DNA from: Spirochaetota bacterium
GTDB lineage: Bacteria > Spirochaetota > GWB1-36-13 > JAKPDD01
Assembly (NCBI GenBank): GCA_029552945.1
Contig: JAKPDD010000048.1
Span: 33,553 to 97,552 of the forward strand
DNA length: 64,000 nt
Reading direction: 5' to 3'
Part shown: one piece after another, positions 10,542 through 38,963 of the stretch
Layout of the letters: each line of letters begins with the position of its first letter
Numbering within the stretch: the first letter of the stretch is position 1
The notes under the pieces: generated by a model
Told to the model about the DNA's origin: nothing
Seen by the model: only the letters and a program-made list of their open reading frames with translations
Database searches by the model: none
Position numbers and translations under genes: made by a program

Positions 10542-10805
10542 TTAGTTTTCGTTTACTGGATATATTGATATTTTCTTTTTTGTTTTTCTATATTTTTCAA
10601 ACTTTACAACACCATCAGACAATGCAAAAAGTGTAAAGTCTCTACCCAAACCAACATTACTACCAGGAAAGAACTTTGTTCCTCTCTGCCTTACAAGTAT
10701 TTCACCTGCCTTTACAAACTGGCCACCAAATCTTTTTACACCAAGTCTTTTTGATATACTATCTCTACCATTCTTACTTGACCCACCACCCTTCTTATGA
10801 GCCAT
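10542..10805 (-). CDS. rpmA: 50S ribosomal protein L27
   Basis: An 87-residue L27 with the hallmark [16 protein letters not shown] and the core [21 protein letters not shown]27 sits near the peptidyl-transferase centre. The start is fixed by AGGAGGAG a few bases upstream, so the protein has no N-terminal extension. That matters because in Firmicutes a Prp protease, encoded between rplU and rpmA as here, removes such an extension. It is followed by a strong terminator. Confidence 0.97.
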
Positions 10806-10821
10806 AAACTCCTCCTAAATT

Positions 10822-11132
10822 TTATTTATTTCCTTTTTTATAAAAAACTTTTATTTTATCAGAATACTCATTTTCAAAAACCCTTAAGGTTGCATAAAGT
10901 GTTTTAACTAAAATTAAACCTTCGGGTTCATTTATATCTAAAATAGATATATACCCATCCTTCTTTACAACTTTTTTTTTAAGTTCAAAACACCATTTAT
11001 TCCTATCTCAAACATTTGAACAACACTTGAGACACCAGCACAAACTAAGTCATGCCCTTTATTTCCACCAGCATGCCCGCTTATTTCAATAGATAAGCTT
11101 CCATCAAAGTCTAAAAATACTGCTTCAATCAT
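10822..11132 (-). CDS. prp: Ribosomal-processing cysteine protease Prp homologue, reading frame broken at an A9 run
   Basis: Missing from the ORF track because the frame is interrupted. From the ATG at 11132, which overlaps the rplU stop as TAATG, the frame encodes 55 residues including the Prp active-site region SGHAGGNKGHDLVCAGVS (H20 and C31 visible), then stops at TAA after KKKL. Adding one base in the A9 run (10972-10980) gives a 103-residue protein of normal Prp length. It continues DGYISILDINEPEGL and ends SDKIKVFYKKGNK, with its stop at 10822-10824 just before the rpmA ribosome site. Causes could be sequencing error, pseudogenisation, transcriptional slippage or programmed frameshifting. 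Confidence 0.8.
10933..10977 (-). promoter_or_regulatory. Candidate -1 frameshift site in prp: slippery A AAA AAG plus downstream hairpin
   Basis: In the zero frame of prp the codons TTA AAA AAA AAG TTG TAA contain the dnaX-type heptamer A AAA AAG (10977-10971). A -1 slip there yields exactly the downstream Prp frame, and the zero-frame stop follows one codon later. A perfect 8-bp stem with a 3-nt loop (TATATCTA ttt TAGATATA, 10951-10933) lies 19 nt downstream. That spacer is longer than in E. coli dnaX and the stem is AT-rich. The same heptamer occurs harmlessly in the SpoU gene, so the motif alone proves nothing. Confidence 0.35.
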
Positions 11133-11443
11133 TATGCAATAATATCTTCAATAACAAGTTTATGATATTTTTGTCTGTGCCCTTTTTTCTTTCTGTATCC
11201 TTTCTTAGCTCTAAACTTAAAAACTATTAGTTTTTTACCTTTAACCTCTTTTTCAAGTTTTGCTTTAATTTTTACACCATCTACATAAGGAGAACCTATC
11301 TTTACAATATTTCCATTGTTATAATACAGAACCTTATCCAATTCTACAACATCACCCTCATTTGCATCTAAAAGGTCAACATATACCTCTTTTCCTTTTT
11401 CAACTTTATATTGATGTCCTTTTATATCAACTATAGCGTACAT
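11132..11443 (-). CDS. rplU: 50S ribosomal protein L21
   Basis: A 103-residue L21 beginning MYAIVDIKGHQYKVEKGKE, with KVLYYNNGNIVKIGSPYVDG and the rRNA-binding tail FKFRAKKGYRKKKGHRQKY. The track start at 11464 adds MMMQGGN, but AAGGAGG lies inside that stretch, so the ATG at 11443 is the real start. It is the first gene of rplU-prp-rpmA and its stop overlaps the prp start by 1 nt. It diverges from the STAS gene across an AT-rich 209-nt region. Confidence 0.95.
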   Translation of the reverse strand: MYAIVDIKGHQYKVEKGKEVYVDLLDANEGDVVELDKVLYYNNGNIVKIGSPYVDGVKIKAKLEKEVKGKKLIVFKFRAKKGYRKKKGHRQKYHKLVIEDIIA

Positions 11444-11652
11444 ATTTCCTCCTTGCATCATCAAAAAAACTGATTAAAAATTAATAAAATTCTTGTAAAA
11501 TACAAAATTTTGAATAAATATTATTAATAATAACAAACAATCTATAAGAAATTTAACTATATAAAAAATTTAACTAAAAGATATTAATTATTAAGTATAA
11601 ATTTATTTAAATTTTATTTAAACTAATTAAAAAATAAATAAAAGGAGAAAAT

Positions 11653-14314: not shown

Positions 14315-15061
14315 ATGGGATTTACAAAAAAAAAGTTTTTAAAAATATCAACAAACTCAAAATTAAAAAAAATAGGCTTTTTTTTAAAAGAATATATTAC
14401 AACTGAAAAAAAAGAGTTATTAGAAACATCAAAATTACTTATTGAATGGTTAAGAGAAATAGATAATATATCTTTGAAATTGCCTGAAAATAGATATGAA
14501 GCTGGAATATTGTACCATAAAATATTATCTATACTTAACAAATCAGTATATGAAGATATATATCCATACGACGACACAGGAAAAGAAAGAAAAATATTTG
14601 AGATAGCTCTAATACTTGACAATTTAAGGTCTCCCCATAATGTTGGTTCAATAATAAGAACATCAGAAGGATTAGGAGTAAAAAAAATAATACTTACTGG
14701 AATAACGCCAAGAACTGATAATCCTAAAGTTAAAAGAGTCTCAATGAACAGTATTGTAGATACAGTATATATCGAAAGAACAGAAGATGCGGTAGAATTA
14801 ATGAAAAAAGATAATTATAAAATAGTAGCTATTGAAAAAACCAAAAAATCTATACCATACAACAATTTTTTTATAGAAAGACCATGTTTTATATTTGGTA
14901 ATGAAGAGTTTGGAATAAGTCAATCAATTCTTGAAATGTCAGAATATATAGTACATATACCTATGTACGGTATAAAAAACTCTCTTAATGTATCTGTTGC
15001 AACAGGTATAATAATAAGTAATTATCTTAATCTATATTTTAAAAATATTAATAATATATAA
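14315..15061 (+). CDS. TrmH/SpoU-family RNA 2'-O-methyltransferase
   Basis: A 248-residue SPOUT methyltransferase. An N-terminal helical region (about 1-95) precedes the catalytic domain, which carries the three SpoU motifs: LDNLRSPHNVGSIIRTSEGLG, FIFGNEEFGIS and NSLNVSVATGIIISNYL. The last two form the SAM-binding trefoil knot. It could modify rRNA (RlmB-like) or tRNA (TrmH-like); sequence alone does not decide. An in-frame A9 run lies near the start and contains A AAA AAG without frame disruption. Confidence 0.85.
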   Translation: MGFTKKKFLKISTNSKLKKIGFFLKEYITTEKKELLETSKLLIEWLREIDNISLKLPENRYEAGILYHKILSILNKSVYEDIYPYDDTGKERKIFEIALILDNLRSPHNVGSIIRTSEGLGVKKIILTGITPRTDNPKVKRVSMNSIVDTVYIERTEDAVELMKKDNYKIVAIEKTKKSIPYNNFFIERPCFIFGNEEFGISQSILEMSEYIVHIPMYGIKNSLNVSVATGIIISNYLNLYFKNINNI

Positions 15062-38890: not shown

Positions 38891-38963
38891 TGGGCTGTAC
38901 AGGATTTGAACCTGTGACCCATTGATTAAGAGTCAATTGCTCTACCAACTGAGCTAACAGCCC
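38891..38963 (-). tRNA. tRNA-Lys (CUU)
   Basis: A 73-nt cloverleaf, acceptor GGGCTGT/ACAGCCC, anticodon loop CTCTTAA giving CUU, T-loop GTTCAAATC. No encoded CCA. Confidence 0.95.

Follow-up and report, generated by a model that had tools for sequence, protein, structure and literature searches.

A frame break at an A9 run in a spirochaete prp gene probably reflects a change in homopolymer length and does not look like a built-in frameshifting switch

The window analysed here is a stretch of 64,000 nucleotides with 27% G+C, taken from an assembly of 1.87 Mb in 50 contigs that is 99% complete. FlaA (PF04620), the spirochaete flagellar sheath protein, was detected in this genome and in all but one of 60 genomes of the same phylum, and in 0 of 14 controls, a distribution indicating that the window comes from a spirochaete. 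On the minus strand, rplU, prp and rpmA follow one another in the usual order, and rpmA is preceded by AGGAGG (Table 1). A search of contigs for relatives of the locus returned only distant relatives of L21. The prp gene starts at 11132 and extends to 10822. Its zero frame reads MIEAVFLDFDGSLSIEISGHAGGNKGHDLVCAGVSSVVQMFEIGINGVLNLKKKL, ending in ...GVLNLKKKL*, and the stop codon at 10967-10965 comes one codon past a run of nine adenines (A9), after 55 codons. Beyond the run, the -1 frame reads VVKKDGYISILDINEPEG...KKGNK*; the continuation after 10980-10972 is VVKKDGYISILDINEPEGLILVKTLYATLRVFENEYSDKIKVFYKKGNK, with its stop at 10822. The heptamer A AAA AAG at 10977-10971 lies in the zero frame of prp. 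A sequence-only reading of this DNA had described prp as frame-broken at the A9 run, with the zero frame stopping after KKKL, the heptamer in frame one codon ahead of the stop and the remainder of Prp in the -1 frame. This description was confirmed, as was the remark on a SpoU gene at 14315 that also has this heptamer in frame.

Table 1. Coordinates of features at the prp locus and of the tRNA-Lys gene in the window
Feature	Position	Strand	Remarks
rplU (L21)	11132..11464	-	stop overlaps prp start (TAATG)
prp zero-frame ORF	10965..11132	-	55 aa; Prp catalytic His20 and Cys31; ends LKKKL*; PF04327 43.2 bits
A9 run, place of the frame break	10972..10980	-	next base is G (10971), which completes an in-frame A AAA AAG
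prp second half, -1 frame	10822..10971	-	49 codons and stop; without a start codon of its own
Hairpin, AU-rich, 8 bp (TATATCTA TTT TAGATATA)	10933..10951	-	19 nt after the heptamer
rpmA (L27)	10542..10805	-	lacks the N-terminal extension cleaved by Prp in Firmicutes (PMC9405229)
tRNA-Lys, anticodon CTT	38891..38963	-	in the window

The two halves of prp, when joined across the run, gave a Prp of normal length (103 aa) that matched Pfam PF04327 with 54.2 bits over positions 1-90 of the 90-position profile, in keeping with the earlier statement that both ends match Prp. The truncated zero-frame product alone scored 43.2 bits and covered positions 1-55 of 90. H20 and C31 were invariant in the Prp alignment, the junction aligned with the Prp of a relative from the same order without a gap save for one residue, and the solved Prp of S. 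aureus (4PEO) matched the joined protein along most of its length. The gene therefore shares with the ribosomal-processing cysteine protease Prp (PF04327, MEROPS C108) the whole profile, the His20 and Cys31 pair and the placement between rplU and rpmA, and differs from known Prp in the frame break at A9 and in being accompanied by an L27 that lacks the cleavable N-terminal extension expected with Prp. The open -1 frame exceeds chance, since only 0.4-0.6% of off-frame stretches in real genes reach 49 stop-free codons, and the codon usage of this half is coding-like and its end normal. A second half that is still open and still coding-like points to a break that happened recently or is not real. 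The second half is unlikely to be a separate gene or the product of a translation restart, because no ATG, GTG or TTG was found within it in the -1 frame.

With an in-frame heptamer just one codon ahead of the stop and a hairpin downstream, the locus suggested programmed -1 ribosomal frameshifting of the dnaX type, in which the hairpin would stimulate the shift on A AAA AAG, as the source of full-length Prp. In the E. coli dnaX cassette, too, A AAA AAG is in frame and a stop follows shortly. However, prp differs from that cassette in its 19-nt spacer, its weak AU hairpin, the two tRNA-Lys of the genome and, apparently, the want of a good Shine-Dalgarno sequence 9-14 nt upstream, and its long product would need the shift, which is the reverse of E. 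coli dnaX. Upstream of the heptamer, only a GGTG lies at a suitable distance, ending about 13 nt away, and an AGGA lies 23 nt away. The caveat that the spacer is long was well founded, as stimulatory structures usually lie 5-9 nt from the slippery site (PMC5009743). The 8-bp hairpin itself is present, but its role as a stimulator was not borne out, its folding being no better than that of shuffled sequences (z -0.5 to -1.0). That A AAA AAG is so extremely shifty in E. coli has been tied to its having only one tRNA-Lys, whose pairing with AAG is weak (PMC5009743), whereas here a second tRNA-Lys (TTT) is encoded on another contig and the genome has both the CTT and the TTT anticodon, which argues against efficient shifting of this type. 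In Thermus, which has two lysine tRNAs, slippage of the polymerase takes the place of frameshifting (PMC5009743). Nor is the heptamer avoided in this genome, as 172 in-frame copies were counted in 400 sampled genes (414 kb), compared to 102 +/- 9 in synonymous-codon shuffles. A AAA AAG is thus over-represented in genes here, in contrast to E. coli, where it has been reported to be avoided (PMC5009743). Together with the lack of conservation of the site and the break in the 52 relatives with a Prp match, described below, these results leave dnaX-type frameshifting at prp unsupported, and we regard it as barely credible.

Conservation of the break was compared at the distance of different families, in a set of 60 same-phylum genomes, of which a single one (G001) belongs to the order of this genome and none to its family. 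A Prp match was found in 52 of these genomes and was uninterrupted in all 52. In the same-order relative, prp reads ...GLLALAGLSEKNIEKKDGFL... across the position of the break, and no in-frame A AAA AAG is present there. The frame break is thus shared by none of these relatives, and the heptamer is absent from the one of the same order; relatives of this kind were one of the two outcomes that the sequence-only reading had named as refuting it. The retention of Prp by 52 of the 60 speaks for a function and weighs against the explanation preferred below. The remaining eight genomes were without a Prp match and included all three of one family (f17), which are 99-100% complete and contain an ordinary L27 and FlhB; Prp can therefore be lost within the phylum. 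The L27 proteins of relatives that were read had no N-terminal extension, as here. L27 lacks this extension in all spirochaetes, and FlhB has been proposed as the substrate of Prp there (PMC9405229). Loss of Prp is tolerable, given an L27 with no extension to cleave (PMC9405229) and a family without Prp. The proposed substrate FlhB is present in this genome, so that its absence does not account for the prp break. Most relatives also have a second short protein that matches only the C-terminal part of FlhB, and this protein is absent from the present genome and from the same-order relative. An L27 that needs no cleavage and the absence of Prp from one family of the phylum would also suit an old pseudogene, a prp that died long ago. 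The second half is, however, open over a length seldom reached off frame, coding-like in its codon usage and recognisable as Prp, and an old death of the gene is very improbable.

We then considered how A/T runs behave in the genome at large. A9 itself is not rare, the 9-mer being matched 110 times in the forward and 111 times in the reverse direction in the genome. Within genes, compared to synonymous-codon shuffles of 400 genes, A9 was observed 31 times against 51 expected, A10 once against 21, A11 and longer 0 times against 8, and T9 7 times against 18; the same shuffles gave no depletion of A5-A8 runs in genes. Genes here are under selection against A/T runs that reach or exceed nine, as in many AT-rich genomes (PMC1088944), and instability of long runs during replication or transcription would be expected to produce such a depletion (PMC1088944). 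Homopolymers and frame breaks were scanned in a sample of 772 kb, 41% of the genome, read as stretches. Uninterrupted ORFs of 100 aa or more in this sample contain at least 64 other A/T runs with nine or more bases, which argues against a general failure of the assembly at long runs, and prp was the only gene found broken at an A/T run this long.

Two unrelated genes were found broken at shorter A/T runs, so that a homopolymer break, through assembly or through mutation, is a background event in this genome. A MASE3 histidine kinase gene (C3:39203-39218) is broken at a T7, and its HisKA and HATPase domains lie in the -1 frame, in which HisKA starts. A gene for an AP_endonuc_2 (Xylose isomerase-like) protein, at about C3:169,830, is broken at an A6, and its match to the Pfam profile runs on past this point. 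The second half of both lies in the -1 frame, as in prp. These three broken genes are a lower bound, since the scans miss some breaks and the gene calls were simple; the scans also produced many false candidates. Two candidates that had seemed genuine, an MptE-like gene (C12:62318-62342) and a methyltransferase-like gene (C41:11711-11739), were not counted, being probably normal junctions with an unusual start codon, and C41:173165 was set aside as a normal overlap by eye. The MptE-like and methyltransferase-like genes have no ATG, GTG or TTG near the expected start and show a Shine-Dalgarno-like stretch before an ATT or ATA; they perhaps have unusual start codons, or perhaps are frame breaks.

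The intact prp of relatives and the similar breaks elsewhere in the genome make a change in homopolymer length, which had been raised only as a caveat to frameshifting, the better explanation. We therefore consider that the prp break is most probably (a probability of roughly 0.8) a one-base change in the length of the A run, present either as an assembly or population variant or as a recent mutation, and it does not look like a built-in frameshifting switch. The run holds nine A, whereas the frame of prp calls for a length that differs from this by one (modulo three). The site has the appearance of a slippery heptamer, as would every A run that ends in a G in this phase. The change may indicate either that the draft consensus carries a length error, or a minority or majority length variant, in which case prp would be intact in many cells, or that a recent mutation occurred in the cells through replication slippage. 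In the latter case prp would be a leaky null, whose main product would be the 55-aa fragment, which lacks the second half of the fold; RNA polymerase slipping on the A9 run would be expected to provide some full-length Prp, by analogy with slippage elsewhere. The odds between these two cases are about even. We infer that the break is recent or a matter of the consensus, and likewise that slippage leaks through it. The poly(A) indels of Buchnera and Blochmannia, which are partly corrected by polymerase slippage (PMC5009743), offer a parallel in that an AT-rich genome carries a gene broken at a long A run and the full protein would be recoverable through slippage; the prp break, unlike these, is known from one genome sequence alone. 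A stricter proposal, in which the A9 is fixed in the species, Prp comes only from extra-A transcripts and its dose is set through transcriptional slippage, is quite improbable.

Slippage that is itself under selection has precedents in Thermus dnaX and Shigella mxiE. Applied to prp, it would mean that RNA polymerase slips on the A9 run, that mRNAs with extra A give full Prp and that the ratio of products is selected. Slippage becomes efficient once a run reaches nine (PMC1088944, PMC5009743), the two halves of prp have kept their coding character, and the selection against A9 and longer runs indicates that slippage has effects in this genome. Against this, the run and the break are common to none of the relatives, the other A9 runs of the genome sit in uninterrupted genes, and the 55-aa product is only half of the fold and has no known use. 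The dnaX gene of Thermus thermophilus similarly has an A9 run in a genome with two lysine tRNAs (PMC5009743), but its zero frame gives the long product, whereas the zero frame of prp gives the fragment. On balance, selected slippage at prp is unlikely, and a change in homopolymer length remains our preferred explanation.

The dnaX gene of this genome (C3:32576) carries an A9 in the linker that precedes the C-terminal domain, and the other two frames have stops 0 and 8 codons away. In the dnaX of the same-order relative (C56), an A12 occupies the same linker, and the other-frame stops are 4 and 6 codons away. Taken with the two tRNA-Lys, the A9 and A12 runs resemble the arrangement for slippage that makes gamma from Thermus dnaX, and dnaX is a better slippage candidate than prp, although nearby stops alone are common at such base composition.

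The prp locus carries a warning for the reading of AT-rich draft genomes, in which a slippery-looking heptamer is expected wherever the homopolymer length at a frame break differs by one. Such slippery-looking breaks can be checked quickly by looking at the tRNA-Lys content and by counting the heptamer across the genome. If selected slippage at prp were true, it would add a new class of regulated gene to those subject to slippage in spirochaetes.
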